DNA of 62,188 nucleotides from an uncultured delta proteobacterium (GTDB lineage Bacteria; Myxococcota_A; Polyangia; Polyangiales; Polyangiaceae): the NCBI GenBank assembly GCA_903894755.1, contig CAITRH010000117.1, positions 1 through 62,188 of the forward strand. The letters are read 5' to 3'. The notes below the pieces were generated by a model that did not search any database, was not told where the DNA came from, and saw nothing but the letters and a program-made list of their open reading frames with translations. Of this stretch, positions 7,434-54,658 are shown in pieces. Numbering within the stretch: the first letter of the stretch is position 1; each line of letters begins with the position of its first letter. The position numbers and the translations under genes were made by a program.

Positions 7434-7485
7434 ACCCATCGATGGGGAGGGGGAATTTGTAGAGGAGCGCGAAGTTGCGGGGAGG
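7434..7485. repeat. Short intergenic repeat (CCCATCGATGGGG element)
   Basis: Directly after the lipoprotein stop, CCCATCGATGGGG is followed by a G-rich stretch and TTTGTAGAGGAGCGCGAAG. The same sequence, inverted, occurs near 61.34 kb, and a related one forms the centre of the 49.5-kb palindrome. It is a member or fragment of the dispersed palindromic repeat family. Confidence 0.6.
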
Positions 7486-7531
7486 GGCGGCCAGGTGGCC
7501 CTCCTTGTCTCCAAAGGAAAGGAGCTCGTTC

Positions 7532-9139
7532 GTGACCGCCCCTGAGGACCCGAGTCCCGAAAGCCCCGTGCTCGTCGTGGACGACGACCCGTGGACCCTC
7601 GGTGTGCTGGTTGACTTGCTCCATCGCGAGGGGGTCCGCTCGCTCACCGCAAGCAGCGCAGAACAGGCCCTCGAGCTTGTTGAGAACGTCGTGCCCCGGC
7701 TCGCTCTGATCGATGTCGTCATGCCTGGCATGGGCGGGCTCGCCCTCTGCCGCCGCCTCAAGGACGATCCGAGGACCGCCGGGATCCCTGTCGTTCTCGT
7801 GACTGGACGGGTCTATGCCGAGGACGTCGACGCGGGGATGGCGGCCGGGGCGATCGACTACATCAAGAAGCCGTTCGACCGGAGCGAAGCGCGGTTCCGA
7901 ATCCGGACACATCTGCGCCTTCAAGATGCCATCCAAAAACAGCGCATCTACGAAAAGAACCTGCTGGGAATTCTCGAGACCCTCCCGGTCGGCATCGCCA
8001 TCGTCGGCAACGACCGGCGCGTGCGCTGGACCAACAGGGCCACCCAACAGCTCGCGTGCGCGTCGGGCCCGAACGACCTCACCGGACAGCCCTGCAACGA
8101 CGTGTTATGCGGTGCCCCTGACGGCAAGTGTCCTATTCTCGATCTCGGCGAGACGATCGAGAAGGTCGAGATGACGTTCCCGCGCGCCGATGGCTCCTCG
8201 GTTCCGGTGCTCAAGAGCGTGCACGAGGTGGAGTTCGACGGTCACATTGCGCTGCTCGAGGTGTTCGTGGATCTTCGCAAGCGTAAGCAACTCGAGATCG
8301 AGCTCGGACACGCGAGAAAACTGGAGGCCGTCGGTCAGCTCGCGGCCGGTATCGCCCACGAGATCAACACGCCCACCCAGTATGTTGGCGACAGCGTCCA
8401 GTTCCTCAAAGAGGCCTTCGATGGCCTCCAGCGTCTCATGGTCAAGTACCGAGAGACCATCGCGAGCCTCGTTGGCGCAGGCAGCGCACTCTCGGAGGAG
8501 ATCGCGGCGCTCGAGACGGAGGTCGACCTGGACTACCTGCAAGAGAACATCCCCGGCGCCTTCAACGACTGCATTGGCGGGATCTCGCGCATTGCGAACA
8601 TCGTGCGTGCAATGAAGGAGTTTGCCCACCCCGACCAGCGCGAGCAGAGCCTGGCCGACATCAATCAGGCTCTCCTGAACACCCTTACGATCGCTCGAAA
8701 CGAGTACAAGTCCGTGGCCGACGCCGAGTCCGACCTCGCGGAGCTTCCACAGATCATGTGCCACCTAGGCGATCTCAATCAGGTCTTCCTGAACCTCATC
8801 GTCAACGCTGGACACGCCATCGCCGAAGCCGAGCAGGGCACCGGGGCACGCGGCAAGATCCTCCTGAAGACCGCGCTCGAAGGGGATTTTGTTCGCATTG
8901 AAGTGAGCGATACGGGCGCTGGCATTGCCGCGTCCATCCGTGACCGCGTGTTCGACCCGTTCTTCACCACCAAGCCTGTGGGCAAGGGGACTGGGCAGGG
9001 CCTTGCGATTGCCCGCTCCATCGTTGTCGACCGGCACCGTGGGACCCTGACGTTTGACAGCACGGTCGGGGCGGGGACGACGTTCACGGTCCGGCTGCCC
9101 GTTGGAGGGGCACCGGTTTCGGAGAGGGGAGCGCGATGA
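7532..9139 (+). CDS. Receiver-PAS sensor histidine kinase
   Basis: Cytoplasmic histidine kinase with an N-terminal receiver (VVDDD, Asp in LIDVVMPGMGG, Lys in IKKPF), a PAS domain (LPVGIAIVGNDRRVRWTN), an H-box in AAGIAHEINTPTQYV, and a HATPase with N-box NLIVNAGHAI, G1 DTGAGI, DPFFTTK and G2 GQGLAIA. No membrane helix is seen, so input probably comes through the receiver. The GTG at 7532 follows the strong RBS AAAGGAAAGGAG and is preferred over an upstream ATG at 7475. The TGA overlaps the next ATG (ATGA), so it is translationally coupled to the HDOD-type gene. Confidence 0.9.
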   Translation: MTAPEDPSPESPVLVVDDDPWTLGVLVDLLHREGVRSLTASSAEQALELVENVVPRLALIDVVMPGMGGLALCRRLKDDPRTAGIPVVLVTGRVYAEDVDAGMAAGAIDYIKKPFDRSEARFRIRTHLRLQDAIQKQRIYEKNLLGILETLPVGIAIVGNDRRVRWTNRATQQLACASGPNDLTGQPCNDVLCGAPDGKCPILDLGETIEKVEMTFPRADGSSVPVLKSVHEVEFDGHIALLEVFVDLRKRKQLEIELGHARKLEAVGQLAAGIAHEINTPTQYVGDSVQFLKEAFDGLQRLMVKYRETIASLVGAGSALSEEIAALETEVDLDYLQENIPGAFNDCIGGISRIANIVRAMKEFAHPDQREQSLADINQALLNTLTIARNEYKSVADAESDLAELPQIMCHLGDLNQVFLNLIVNAGHAIAEAEQGTGARGKILLKTALEGDFVRIEVSDTGAGIAASIRDRVFDPFFTTKPVGKGTGQGLAIARSIVVDRHRGTLTFDSTVGAGTTFTVRLPVGGAPVSERGAR

Positions 9140-9853
9140 CGACGCCAGCGCCAGCCAAGAGAACGGTACTTTTCGTGGACGACGAGCCGAGTATCCTCGA
9201 CGGTCTCAAGCGTCGGCTTCACCCGCTGCGAAACAAGTGGGACATGCGCTTCGTGCCGAGCGGACGGGCGGCACTTGATGTCCTTGCCAGTGCCTCCATC
9301 GATGTGATACAGGACATGGCCATGTGCGCCAAGGTGCTGCAGATCGTCAATTCCTCCTTCTTCCGGCTGTCTCGGACCATTGGAAGGATCGAAGAGGCGG
9401 TGAGCTATCTTGGGTTTGGTCCGCTCAAGAACATAGTTCTGGCTGAGGAGGTGTTTCGGTACTCGAAGGCAGGGTCGAAGCGACGCGTGTCTCTCGATGA
9501 CCTGCAGTCCCACGCGCTTCTGGTCGGCACGATTGCGTCCAACCTTGTGACTGACAAGCGCGGCAAGGACGATGCGTTTATTGCCGGGTTGCTTCACGAC
9601 ATTGGAAAGCTTGTTCTTGTCACGGAGCTCCCCGATCACCTCGAAAAGGCGCTGGCCGTCACGAAGGCGCGGGTTCCAGGCAACGAGTTTGGAGTCCTTG
9701 CTGCAACCCATGTGGCCAAAGCGCTTGTGCACGAGCACCGGGGACGGGCCGTGGAGTCGCCGCTGGACATGGCGTATCTCACGCATCTGGGGGGGGGACA
9801 AGCTGCCCGAATGGAGAGAGCTGGCACAAAGGCAGATGACGGTGAGGACATGA
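9136..9853 (+). pseudogene. Decayed REC-HDOD response regulator (frameshifted at G9)
   Basis: The first 55 residues are the start of a receiver (VLFVDDEPSILDG) that breaks off before the phospho-acceptor Asp and jumps at IDV into HDOD sequence (MAMCAKVLQIVNSSFFRL). A second join (VTKAR to VPGNEFGVLAATHVA) appears to lack about 45 residues of the HDOD core; both gaps are inferred from memory of the family layout. At 9789-9797 a run of nine G shifts the frame. One G fewer would give DKLPEWRELAQRQM and stop at 9853, overlapping the next ATG. As sequenced, the frame continues to 10761, fused to the GGDEF protein. The cause is either decay or a sequencing or phase-variable indel. Confidence 0.75.
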
Positions 9854-10761
9854 GCGAGAAGATCCTGCTTGTCGACGACGAGCCCAATGTCCTGCGTGGT
9901 CTGATGCGGACATTGCGGGCTTACGATGTGCTCACGTTCGACGACGCGCGCACGGCACTGGTGGCGCTGAAGGCGACCCCTGACATTGCGGTCATCATTG
10001 CCGACCGCAAGATGCCGTATCTGGACGGTGCGAGGTTTCTAGCGCGCGCTGCGGTGATTGCGCCCCACACCTACCGGGTGATGTTGACAGGAGAGGCGGT
10101 CCTGGAGGTTGCCATCGAGGCTGTGAACATTGGAAGGGTCCACAAGTTTCTCACCAAGCCATGCAGCGAGATCATGCTTCGCAAGGCGGTCGAGGAGGGG
10201 CTGACAGCGCATGCGGCCTCGCAGGAAAAGCAGCGAGCTGACGAGCACATGCAGTTTCTCGCGTTGCACGACCCTCTTACGAACCTTCCCAACCGTGCGC
10301 TCTTTTTCGATCGAGTGCAGTACGCCCTTGCTGGCGCGCGTCGGAGCGGCCTGTTAGTTGCGGCGGCGCTCATCGATCTGGACCGCTTCAAGCCGATCAA
10401 CGACACCCTTGGACACGGCGCGGGAGACGAGCTGCTGTTTCAGGTAGCCAACGACGTAAACCTTTGCATTCGAGAAGTGGACACTGTGGCCCGGATTGGG
10501 GGCGACGAGTTTGCAGCAGTTCTCCAAGGGCTTCCGACACGCGCAGTGGCGGAGGCTATTACGGAGCGCATGAGGATTGCAGTTTCGCGGACACGCACGC
10601 TGACATCCGGACAGACCTGCAGCGTTGGGGCGAGCATTGGCCTGACTGTCGTTGCTGGCGGGATGACATCGCCCGAGGAGCTCGTGAAGCGGGCCGACGA
10701 GGCGATGTACGAGGCGAAGCGAGCGGGGGGCGATCGGGTGGTCGTGTGGGCGGGGCCATAA
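9850..10761 (+). CDS. Response regulator diguanylate cyclase (REC-GGDEF)
   Basis: 303 residues from the ATG at 9850. The receiver (ILLVDDEPNVL, Asp in IIADRKMPYLDG, Lys in FLTKPC) is of the RpfG-like kind. It is followed by a GGDEF domain with intact RIGGDEFAA, and a REVD inhibitory I-site five residues upstream, so a product-inhibited, active c-di-GMP synthase is expected. It is the third gene of a kinase / HDOD / GGDEF cascade and would normally start inside an ATGA overlap; with the present G9 tract it is also read as the C-terminal half of a fusion from 9136. Confidence 0.88.
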   Translation: MSEKILLVDDEPNVLRGLMRTLRAYDVLTFDDARTALVALKATPDIAVIIADRKMPYLDGARFLARAAVIAPHTYRVMLTGEAVLEVAIEAVNIGRVHKFLTKPCSEIMLRKAVEEGLTAHAASQEKQRADEHMQFLALHDPLTNLPNRALFFDRVQYALAGARRSGLLVAAALIDLDRFKPINDTLGHGAGDELLFQVANDVNLCIREVDTVARIGGDEFAAVLQGLPTRAVAEAITERMRIAVSRTRTLTSGQTCSVGASIGLTVVAGGMTSPEELVKRADEAMYEAKRAGGDRVVVWAGP

Positions 10762-10829: not shown

Positions 10830-11230
10830 CTCGGCGTGAGTCAGGAGTCGCCTTGTGGCCCACCGACCAGCCGACTCCAGGTCGTTGCAGTCGGCTCGTC
10901 GCTGAACGACCGAGCCCCATCATTCCCAGGAAGTGGCCTTGCCTTGGAGCGACGAGGCAACTCCGGGCCCCAGAGTCGCCTCGTCGCTGAACGACCGTGG
11001 CGCTCCAGTTCCCGGAGTTGCCTTGTCGTCAGCGCCTACGTGGCATCGGAACCCTCGGAGTTGCCTTGTCGCTGAACGACCAAGGTCTTCCGGGCGCTCG
11101 GAGTCGGCTTGTGGCTTAGGCACGGAGCTCCTCTGGCCGTCGAAGTTGCCCCGTCGGTGAGCTTCGAGTCAGGTTCCACTGTCCGGAGCGACCTTGTCGG
11201 CCAACGCCATGGTCGCTCCACACGAATCGA
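10830..11230. repeat. Degenerate dispersed repeats in a non-coding gap
   Basis: The 558-bp gap 10762-11319 holds no convincing gene. It contains several imperfect copies of a unit with the core TCGCTGAACGACC, preceded by GGAGTTGCCTTG or AGTCGCCTCG and followed by a variable stretch ending in CCGG. The core is seen at about 10896, 11007 and 11070, with weaker copies further right, and another beside the repeat at 12.33 kb. Copies diverge too much for a recent tandem array. Confidence 0.55.
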
Positions 11231-23115: not shown

Positions 23116-24360
23116 CTACCGCCGCTCGAGAAGCAACGCATGCTCGGCTCGTGGACGCTGCCGAAACGCTTGCCCCGCTGCTCCGTACACCTGACCCCGC
23201 GTCTGCGTCGCCCTCGCCACCCGTACAAACAGCGTCGGATCCGCCGCCGCCGCCACCAACTCGTCGGCCCGTAACGCCACCCCCTCCACCGCCGAGTCCG
23301 CTACAACCAGCACCACCTGCCCCCGAGGCCGTACTACCCGCGCAAGACTCCGAAACAACACCTCGAGCTCCCTCCGCCACGCCCCCTGCGCCTCGTCCGA
23401 CGTCAGCCCTAAATACCGACGCCGCGAACCAAATTCCCCCTCGAACAGCGGCGTTGCATCAAGCCCAAGCCACCGAAACCGAAGCTCGTGATGCACCGTA
23501 TAGTCGTAGGTCCCCCCGTACGGCGGCGACGTCACCACCGTCTCCACGCTCCGCTCCGGTACGGTCACCAGCCGCATTGCATCGTCCTGCTCCACGCGAA
23601 CCCTCGGACACGGCTCGGGAAGCGCATCGGCAAGCTCCTCGAGACGATCCACCAGCTCGCTCGTCTTCTTGCGAAATAACTTCGTCGTGTACCCCGCTGC
23701 CGTCCGCCGTGGCCCAAGCTCGCGCGACGTGTCCCCGCGCTTCTTACTCAGTTTCACTAGCAGCGCGCTCAGCACCAGCCACAACGCCCCTCGAAGCTCT
23801 GACTCCACCCCCTCGATGCCCGCCCGTAGCCCGTCCAACTCGAGAAGCACATGAGGCTCGAATACCTCCACGTCCTCCGGTGGATACCGCTTCGTCGACC
23901 CCGCCTTCCGCTCCCGCCGATCCTCAGCCCCGTCCGCAATCACCTCGGCTGCGTCCAATAGACGCGCCCGGTCGTCCACTGTCCCTGGATGCGTCTTGAG
24001 CCTTGTCAGCGCCACTGCCAATGGATTCAAGTCGATCCCAATCGAACGCCGCCCAGCCAGCATCGCTTCCACCGCCACAGTCCCCGACCCCACAAACGGG
24101 TCGAGAACCGTCCCTTGCGACGTCGAAAACGGCTCGATCAGCCTTGCCGCCGTCTGTGGATGCATCCGCGCGGGAAAACTGTGAAACCCGTGAACATGCA
24201 CCCGGTCCGGATCCTCGCCGTGCGAGGTCCCAGGTGGCGGTGGCGGTGGAACATCCAGAGCCCATCCCAGTAGGTTGGCCGACTCTGGATCGCCCGCCAC
24301 CTCAATGGGACCTCCCGTGTTCGTGAGCGACCTGCGTAACGCCTTGTCTCCTCCTATCAC
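23116..24360 (-). CDS. DNA methylase-like SAM methyltransferase (N4/N6 type)
   Basis: 414 residues. An N-terminal HSFPARMHPQTAARLI segment leads into motif I DPFVGSGT (87-94) with GIDLNPLA, and motif IV TSPPYGGTYDYT occurs near residue 280, the signature of amino-methyltransferases (DPPY/SPPY class). About 185 residues, including a helical Lys/Arg-rich stretch, lie between the two motifs and may hold the target-recognition part. There is no neighbouring restriction enzyme, so it is an orphan enzyme; a role in RNA modification cannot be excluded. The GTG start overlaps the upstream stop (GTGA). Confidence 0.75.
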   Translation of the reverse strand: MIGGDKALRRSLTNTGGPIEVAGDPESANLLGWALDVPPPPPPGTSHGEDPDRVHVHGFHSFPARMHPQTAARLIEPFSTSQGTVLDPFVGSGTVAVEAMLAGRRSIGIDLNPLAVALTRLKTHPGTVDDRARLLDAAEVIADGAEDRRERKAGSTKRYPPEDVEVFEPHVLLELDGLRAGIEGVESELRGALWLVLSALLVKLSKKRGDTSRELGPRRTAAGYTTKLFRKKTSELVDRLEELADALPEPCPRVRVEQDDAMRLVTVPERSVETVVTSPPYGGTYDYTVHHELRFRWLGLDATPLFEGEFGSRRRYLGLTSDEAQGAWRRELEVLFRSLARVVRPRGQVVLVVADSAVEGVALRADELVAAAADPTLFVRVARATQTRGQVYGAAGQAFRQRPRAEHALLLERR

Positions 24361-35287: not shown

Positions 35288-36313
35288 GTGCGCCGGACAC
35301 TTGATCCCACCCTAGATGTCGTCTTCAAGCTGCTCTTTGCGGACTCGAAGAACCGCGACCTTCTGATCGCTCTGCTCACCGCGGTGCTGCGTCCCAAGTC
35401 GCCGATCCGCTCGGTGACCGTGCTAAACCCAGAGGTCTCGAAGGAGGCGGTGACGGACAAAAGCATCGTGCTGGATATCCTTGTGCTCTGCGAGAACGGC
35501 ACCCAAGCGGACGTCGAGATGCAGGCCGATCGACGTCCTGCGTGGCGGTCCCGTTGCATGTTCTACTGGGCCAAGGTGTATTCGTCGCAGCTGACCCCCG
35601 GTCTCCCCTACACAACACTGAAGCCTGTGAAGGTGGTTGCTTTCTTGGGCTACCAGGAGTTCGAGGGCGACTGGTTGCACTCCGTGTTCCAGGTTCAGGA
35701 CATGCGAACGGGCAAGGTTTTCAGCGACGCGTTGGAGCTGCACACCATTGAGCTCCCGAAGCTTTCCGTCATGGGCGAAGCCGAGCGACAGGAGAACCCG
35801 GCGCTCACCTTGTGGACTCGGTTCTTTGCTGCGACCACGGACGAAGAATTGGAACAATTGGCCAAGGAGGATCCTATGATGCAAGTAGCGCATACGCGCT
35901 TGGTGGACCTGTCGACGCACGAAGAAGCATGGCAGCTGGCCAGGGAGCGGGAGATGTCGCAAGCGACCTACCGGATCGAAATAGGGGCTGCCATCGAGCT
36001 CGGCGAAAAGCGTGGCGAAGAGCGTGGCATCGAGCTCGGCGAAAAGCGTGGTATCGAGGTCGGCGAAAAGCGAGGCATCGAGGTTGGCGAAAAGCGAGGT
36101 ATCGAGGTCGGCGAAAAGCGAGGCATCGAGGTCGGCGAGCGCAACGCCTTGGCCGCGGCAGTTCTCCATGTGCTGCACGCCCGAGCCATCCCGGTGACCG
36201 ACGAAATCCGCGCCGCGATCCTCGCTTGCGGCGACCGCGCACGGCTTGAAGGGTGGGTGCAACGCGCCGTCTCCGTCCCCTGTGCCGAAGACCTGCTGGC
36301 CGAAGGCGCCTGA
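35288..36313 (+). CDS. Rpn-family PD-(D/E)XK nuclease / putative transposase (intact copy)
   Basis: 341 residues, GTG start. The N-terminus (LDPTLDVVFKLLFADSKNRD) and the core D63 in IVLDILVLCENG with E77-M-Q79 in ADVEMQADRR are the PD-(D/E)XK signature of Rpn/PDDEXK_2 proteins, followed by MFYWAKVYSSQL. Characterised Rpn proteins are DNases that stimulate RecA-independent recombination; they are not classic transposases. After residue ~225 an octapeptide GEKRGIEV/L is repeated about five times (24-bp DNA unit), as a probable helical linker. It sits directly behind the 42-bp array. Confidence 0.88.
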   Translation: MRRTLDPTLDVVFKLLFADSKNRDLLIALLTAVLRPKSPIRSVTVLNPEVSKEAVTDKSIVLDILVLCENGTQADVEMQADRRPAWRSRCMFYWAKVYSSQLTPGLPYTTLKPVKVVAFLGYQEFEGDWLHSVFQVQDMRTGKVFSDALELHTIELPKLSVMGEAERQENPALTLWTRFFAATTDEELEQLAKEDPMMQVAHTRLVDLSTHEEAWQLAREREMSQATYRIEIGAAIELGEKRGEERGIELGEKRGIEVGEKRGIEVGEKRGIEVGEKRGIEVGERNALAAAVLHVLHARAIPVTDEIRAAILACGDRARLEGWVQRAVSVPCAEDLLAEGA

Positions 36314-43740: not shown

Positions 43741-44616
43741 GTGCGCCGGACACTTGATCCCACCCTTGACATCGTCTTCAAGCTGCTCTTTGCGGACTCG
43801 AAGAACCGCGACCTTCTGATCGCTCTGCTCACCGCGGTGCTGCGTCCCAAGTCGCCGATCCGCTCGGTGACCGTGCTCAATCCGGAGGTCTCGAAGGAGG
43901 CGGTGACGGACAAGAGGTTGCACTCGGTGTTCCAGGTTCAGGATGCGCGAACGGGCAAGGTTTTCAGCGACGCGTTGGAGCTACACACCATCGAGCTCCC
44001 GAAGCTTTCCGTCATGGGCGAAGCCGAGCGACAGGAGAACCCGGCGCTCACCTTATGGACTCGGTTCTTTGCGGCGACGACGGACGAAGAATTGGAACAA
44101 TTGGCCAAGGAGGATCCTATGATGCAAGTAGCGCATACGCGCTTGGTGGACCTGTCGACACGCGAAGAAGCATGGCAGCTCGCGAGGGAGCGGGAGATGT
44201 CGCAAGCGACCTACCGGATCGAAATGGGGGCTGCTATCGAGCTCGGCGAAAAGCGTGGCGAAGAGCGTGGCATCGAGCTCGGCGAAAAGCGTGGTATCGA
44301 GGTCGGCGAAAAGCGAGGCATCGAGGTTGGCGAAAAGCGAGGTATCGAGCTTGGCGAAAAGCGTGGTATCGAGCTTGGCGAAAAGCGAGGCATCGAGCTT
44401 GGCGAAAAGCGTGGCGAAGAGCGAGGAATCGAGCTCGGCGAGCGCAACGCCTTGGCTACGGCAGTTCTCCGCGTACTGCACGCCCGAGCCATCCCGGTGA
44501 CCGACGAAACCCGCACTGCGATCCTCGCTTGCTACGACCGCCCCCGCCTCGAAGGCTGGGTAGAACGCGCCGTTTCTGTCCCCCGCGCCGAAGACCTGTT
44601 GGCCGAAGCCGGCTGA
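43741..44616 (+). CDS. Rpn-family protein with catalytic core deleted
   Basis: 291 residues. Identical in plan to the Rpn protein at 35288 and almost identical in sequence, except that about 70 residues after EAVTDK are missing; the frame resumes at LHSVFQVQD. The loss removes D63, E77 and Q79, so nuclease activity is not expected. The GEKRGIEL/V octapeptide tract is longer here (about seven to eight units against five). The reading frame is open, so it may still be made and might act as a regulator or be dying. Confidence 0.85.
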   Translation: MRRTLDPTLDIVFKLLFADSKNRDLLIALLTAVLRPKSPIRSVTVLNPEVSKEAVTDKRLHSVFQVQDARTGKVFSDALELHTIELPKLSVMGEAERQENPALTLWTRFFAATTDEELEQLAKEDPMMQVAHTRLVDLSTREEAWQLAREREMSQATYRIEMGAAIELGEKRGEERGIELGEKRGIEVGEKRGIEVGEKRGIELGEKRGIELGEKRGIELGEKRGEERGIELGERNALATAVLRVLHARAIPVTDETRTAILACYDRPRLEGWVERAVSVPRAEDLLAEAG

Positions 44617-52403: not shown

Positions 52404-52746
52404 ACCCCATTTTGAGAACCGCAGGTCCGATCCACGGTCCGAACCGCCACGGCGACACCCGCGACCCAGGGTTGCCCACCCTGGGCTGTTTTGATTCGCC
52501 CCTTCGGGGCTGCCAATCAACGCGTGGGGTCGTTCCATCGAAGGGAAAAACTGGGGTTCCCCCGCTGCAACGGCGCACGCGCACGCGCATCAGATGATGA
52601 CGACATGGCTTGATTGGCAGCCCCGAAGGGGCGAATCAGAACAGCCCAGGGTGGGCAACCCTGGGTCGCGGGTGTCGCTGTGGCGGGTCGGACCGTGGAT
52701 CGGACCGTGGGTCGGACCTGCGGTTATCAAAGTAGGTTTGGTTTAG
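52404..52746. repeat. Large imperfect inverted repeat with 89-bp loop
   Basis: Left arm 52404-52520 and right arm 52610-52746 are near-perfect inverted copies: CCGCAGGTCCGA, CGACACCCGCGACCCAGGG, CCCACCCTGGGC, TTCGCCCCTTCGGGGCTGCC and CCAATCAA pair with their complements. The right arm has an extra ~15 bp (repeated GGACCGTGGRTC). Loop 52521-52609 has no motif. The right end TTTGGTTTAG is 1 bp from the start codon of the next gene. Confidence 0.85.
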
Positions 52747-54555: not shown

Positions 54556-54658
54556 GCAGACCTCACCCCCAACCCCCCTCTCTCGAAGACGATCTTCCTT
54601 GCCCGAAGGGGCAAGGAGGATGTCGAGGGAGAGGGGGGTTGGGGGGGGGAGGTCCTCC
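54556..54658. repeat. Palindromic repeat, central hairpin type
   Basis: GCAGACCTCACCCCC at left and a G-rich GAGGTCCTCC at right flank ATCTTCCTTGCCC-GAAG-GGGCAAGGAGGAT. The inner part is nearly identical to the hairpin at the left window edge. The outer AAACCAA termini are not seen. It lies 60 bp after the propeller gene and may work as its terminator. Confidence 0.7.

Follow-up and report, generated by a model that had tools for sequence, protein, structure and literature searches.

Between a gene for an HDOD regulator and the diguanylate cyclase gene that follows it lies a tract of nine Gs (9789-9797, + strand), and at this length the tract carries the first reading frame past its stop and into the second gene. 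The question is whether such a tract serves to switch between separate and fused proteins, or whether the fusion reflects a mutation or an error of sequencing or assembly. We approached it by comparing the locus with related REC-HDOD genes and with the rest of the window, by which we mean the whole 62,188-nucleotide stretch analysed.

The operon and its open frames

The operon comprises three genes, all on the + strand. The first encodes a REC-PAS-histidine kinase (7475-9139; Pfam Response_reg and HATPase_c, with PAS_4 slightly under its cut-off), and its stop overlaps the HDOD start in an ATGA at 9136-9139, read directly. The truncated REC-HDOD frame extends from 9136 through the tract end at 9797, matching positions 29-151 of the 196 in the Pfam HDOD profile and, by phmmer, part of a REC domain. 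A tract search and the sequence itself place the nine Gs at the point where the frame shifts; reading frames and Pfam show that the HDOD frame is thereby joined to REC-GGDEF as a single open frame of 541 amino acids (9136-10761). In the other frame the native HDOD stop (9851-9853) overlaps the cyclase ATG (9850) in a second ATGA (9850-9853). The first-pass annotation had described both the fused frame and this overlap; direct reading of the sequence agrees with it on each, and all of its coordinates are correct. By gene neighbours, Pfam and phmmer, the REC-HDOD gene thus sits between an upstream histidine kinase gene and a downstream REC-X gene.

The third gene (9850-10761) has its own ATG and encodes Response_reg and GGDEF domains matching Pfam profile positions 1-111 of 111 and 1-160 of 161, respectively. 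Its translation contains a GGDEF motif with RxxD five residues ahead of it, which we take as marks of a diguanylate cyclase; on the motif and the complete GGDEF domain the product looks complete, and is predicted to be an active REC-GGDEF diguanylate cyclase. Its frame is open for 792 nt on the 5' side of its own start, and the third frame has a stop at 9837-9839, ten bases 5' of that start (by eye). The sole purine stretch near the ATG, GAGG at 9844-9847, is very close to it, so that independent initiation of the cyclase may be weak.

Directly 3' of the cyclase gene, at 10843-11219, is an array of 16-nt motifs, mostly 42-43 nt apart and including inverted copies, in which no Rfam match was found. 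Its 26-base core occurs, with at most three mismatches, at 14 places on 9 contigs of the genome; the copy on contig C110 resembles the array, by eye, over about 400 nt. Further along the window are two matches to Acido-Lenti-1 RNA (RF01687), at 52465-52511 (+) and 52619-52665 (-), in opposite orientation and 107 nt apart.

Separate genes and a native tail in relatives

For comparison we picked by hand, from more than 100 listed, 20 high-scoring REC-HDOD places in 15 genomes of the same order; these include the genome's own other copy (L109, on contig C206), some places ranked among them were omitted, and an in-frame stop inside the HDOD region of one, L098, was read as X for the alignment. Comparison with orthologues, proposed in the first-pass annotation as a check on the fusion, found the two genes separate: the HDOD frame enters the next gene in 0 of the 20. 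A downstream REC gene is present in 13 relatives, 12 identified by phmmer and one (L094) being a GGDEF gene whose REC domain was read by eye, and in 10 of these 13 the two genes share the same -4 overlap. The genome's own other copy is full length and has it too. Separate genes are therefore the ancestral layout. In these kinase / REC-HDOD / REC-X operons gene order, domain order, the C-terminal W(R) and the -4 overlap are as in the window; the window copy differs in having lost parts of its REC-HDOD gene, in an end that is out of frame and in being fused. The downstream frame is open for at least 66 nt 5' of its start in nine of the ten relatives with the -4 overlap, and for 42 nt in the tenth (L109). 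Given this overlap and a downstream frame that is already open, fusion is the expected outcome of almost any +1 slip near the joint.

The native HDOD C-terminal tail (DKLPEWRELAQRQMTVRT, then stop) is encoded in the other frame at 9798-9853 and matches the C-termini of relatives. The proposal that the alternative tail, LPEWRELAQRQM, is the native C-terminus is thus upheld: in the alignment it continues the relatives' C-termini, its Trp being shared by 17 of the 20 and 'WR' by 13 (by eye). The codon-use model applied to the 52-nt tail did not discriminate (0.05 vs -0.05). A native tract of eight Gs, as first proposed, would indeed restore the native frame, but 11 would be as natural a guess as eight. 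Of the 14 relatives in which a conserved Gly and the tail Trp could be read by eye, 12 have nine residues from the one to the other, both counted; in the window G8 would give eight residues and an 11-base stretch nine. Since the spacing is mostly nine and G8 gives eight, the native tract belongs to the class 3n+2 and need not be eight.

The tract as such is unremarkable. The window has two G9 tracts where 0.78 are expected, a count of at least two being reached in 19 of 100 shuffles, and the second, at 54641, is intergenic (genes drawn from ORF lists). Counts across the genome fall smoothly, from 323 G8 through 57 G9 to 11 G10, and G tracts are not enriched. When 30 of the 57 G9 tracts were surveyed for codon frame, 28 had both flanks scored, and in 16 of these the best frame agreed between the two flanks, judged by eye on weak scores. 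Over the final 150 nt of the HDOD genes in the 20 relatives, G runs reach six at most. About 56 consecutive Gs form the end of one contig of the genome, C218 (L004, 15908-15963), probably a sequencing artefact, of a kind that we take to be linked with two-colour Illumina chemistry.

Two in-frame gaps in the REC-HDOD gene

The first-pass annotation had treated the HDOD gene as intact. Alignment with the relatives reveals otherwise: residues are absent at two junctions. At junction 1 (9309/9310), after residue 58, 117 family residues are lacking, comprising the REC phospho-acceptor half, the linker and the HDOD start; at junction 2 (9672/9673), after residue 179, 45 residues of the HDOD C-terminal part are gone. 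Both missing pieces are present in all 20 relatives and are close to constant in length, the first being exactly 117 residues in 18 of them (the remaining two have 114 and 116) and the second exactly 45 in 17 (the remaining three have 43, 47 and 48). The gene is likewise full length in the nearest named relatives, L029 from an Acidobacteria MAG and L030 from a Nitrospirota MAG. The window gene accordingly has an incomplete HDOD domain (123 of 196 Pfam profile positions) and a REC remnant without its phospho-acceptor Asp, the Asp-bearing stretch lying inside the absent 117 residues; the one REC match that Pfam gave for the fused product lies in the cyclase part, with none in the HDOD-gene part.

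What is left of the HDOD gene, which we call the stump, shows no sign of decay. In a leave-one-out profile its score per column exceeds that of 17 of the 20 relatives, and it retains 35 of the 37 strongly conserved residues, strong meaning a conservation of at least 80%. The stump and the cyclase gene are similar in their GC at the three codon positions (0.66, 0.41, 0.71 and 0.69, 0.44, 0.73, respectively), and the HDOD frame keeps a positive codon-use score on passing through the two junctions. Each deletion has a length divisible by three; without selection, the chance of this for the pair is 1 in 9. Because the remaining residues are undecayed, the damage is either recent or false, or else the stump is still under selection. 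The search gave no orthologue near enough to put a date on the events: outside its own copy, the cyclase reaches at best 49% local identity, and the genomes searched include no other from the same genus.

Broken REC-HDOD genes were also seen in other genomes: L098 has its in-frame stop around 3800, and in L136 (721-1849) REC and HDOD are in different frames. Hits that seemed to span junction 1 were considered as candidates for a wider half-REC/HDOD family and rejected: L131, L132, L133, L135 and a second HDOD gene of L098 proved to be ordinary HDOD genes with a weak alignment in their upstream part, and L136 has the split frames.

Elsewhere in the window, a PD-(D/E)XK_2 nuclease copy (43741-44616) has about 70 residues fewer, in frame, than a 94% identical full copy (35288-36313). 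The gap is clean in the DNA alignment, with no obvious repeat at its ends, and the two copies differ in their number of GEKRGIEV-like repeats. Like the HDOD gene this copy has a clean in-frame internal loss, but it shows no two-gene fusion. Such a loss elsewhere in the contig fits real deletions and an assembly problem alike. It was one of 39 further window ORFs scanned against Pfam for missing stretches; several of these ORFs have no Pfam match and so fall outside the test. A methylase (23116-24360) with a truncated Pfam match was considered as a further deletion and rejected, its motifs being in swapped order; we take it to be of the circularly permuted type.

Damage, error or switch

The two gaps, the tract and the native tail are plain in the assembly, and the ancestral separation of the genes is plain from the relatives. 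To account for them we favour, as reasonably probable, a damaged middle gene, with two in-frame deletions and a simple tract indel, or small sequence error, in place of a maintained switch. The kinase, REC-HDOD and REC-GGDEF genes, with ATGA (-4) overlaps at both joints, would be translated serially through those joints. Clean in-frame deletions would have cost the middle gene its REC phospho-acceptor half and HDOD start, and then the HDOD C-terminal part. The tract, one step out of frame, would make the stump miss the stop at 9853 and read on into the cyclase; unless it is an assembly error, it would add a third lesion to a gene already damaged. The deletions themselves are probably real, and the stump would no longer be a working regulator; the cyclase probably still works, whether fused to the stump or translated from its own ATG.

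An error in the sequence could account for much of this. The true REC-HDOD gene would then be intact as far as the ATGA, and the draft contig would be wrong in missing two pieces and in having too many or too few bases in the tract. We regard this as rather unlikely, though with a real share of the probability: the genome is a draft of 778 contigs, at least one of which ends in poly-G; the retained residues are undamaged; the gaps equal lengths that are nearly constant in the family; and the nuclease copy is a second window gene with a clean in-frame gap. It would, however, require an assembler to have dropped about 351 nt and about 135 nt independently from one gene, which is not a usual kind of error, and among the 39 further window ORFs that nuclease copy alone was read as missing a stretch. 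Either way, that related bacteria keep the two genes separate points to mutation or assembly error, not to a designed switch.

The switch put forward in the first-pass annotation, in which slippage would give separate proteins at G8 and a fusion of HDOD and cyclase at G9, does not fare well, and we consider it very improbable. A tract of this size is long enough to slip, and the third-frame stop at 9837-9839 would make three states possible. But relatives lack the tract, G tracts are in excess neither in the window nor in the genome, the HDOD gene has already lost its phospho-acceptor half, a single tract length is seen in the assembly, and fusion is in any case built into the -4 overlap. Slippage in homopolymers is known as a mechanism in bacteria (PMC2831843), and the loci concerned have, like the window, a mononucleotide run in a coding frame; the emphasis of that paper, in the part consulted, is on poly(A) and poly(T) runs at gene 5' ends, whereas the run here is poly(G), near a 3' end, with no length variation seen. 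In the parts of the literature consulted, including PMC8115180, we found no layout of neighbouring genes fused at a poly-G tract, either in work on HDOD, GGDEF and phase variation or in work on diguanylate cyclases and frameshifts at homopolymeric tracts; the portion of PMC4395418 consulted makes only passing mention of HDOD.

Natural HDOD-GGDEF proteins do exist, a point in favour of a switch and also of the view that the trimmed HDOD core and REC-GGDEF form a functional chimera under selection. In L134 (777-2450, on contig C16 of genome G010) both domains are encoded in a single open frame of 557 codons, on one chain as in the window fusion; its HDOD region, however, has about 250 residues, whereas that of the window is a stump, with REC between HDOD and GGDEF. 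The frame remains open into the cyclase despite both gaps and the tract, and the HDOD core is well conserved, as selection on a chimera would have it. Against this, the part of REC that would carry the phospho-acceptor Asp is gone, HDOD is cut to the 123 profile positions, and none of the 20 relatives has such a form; we judge an adaptive new gene to be improbable. Least credible, in our estimation, is that the middle gene acts as a translated leader whose frame is kept open by translational coupling of the cyclase, the tract setting three outputs: a length of 3n+2 would give coupled, free cyclase, 3n the stump/cyclase fusion, and 3n+1 premature termination ten bases short of the cyclase start.

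The damaged middle gene, the reading we prefer, serves mostly as a warning: where genes overlap by -4, a single slip can be enough to yield a fused two-domain gene in a draft genome, and it is the relatives that expose it. If both in-frame losses are real, the middle regulator of this operon would be in the course of being lost, its frame kept open for the coupled gene that follows.
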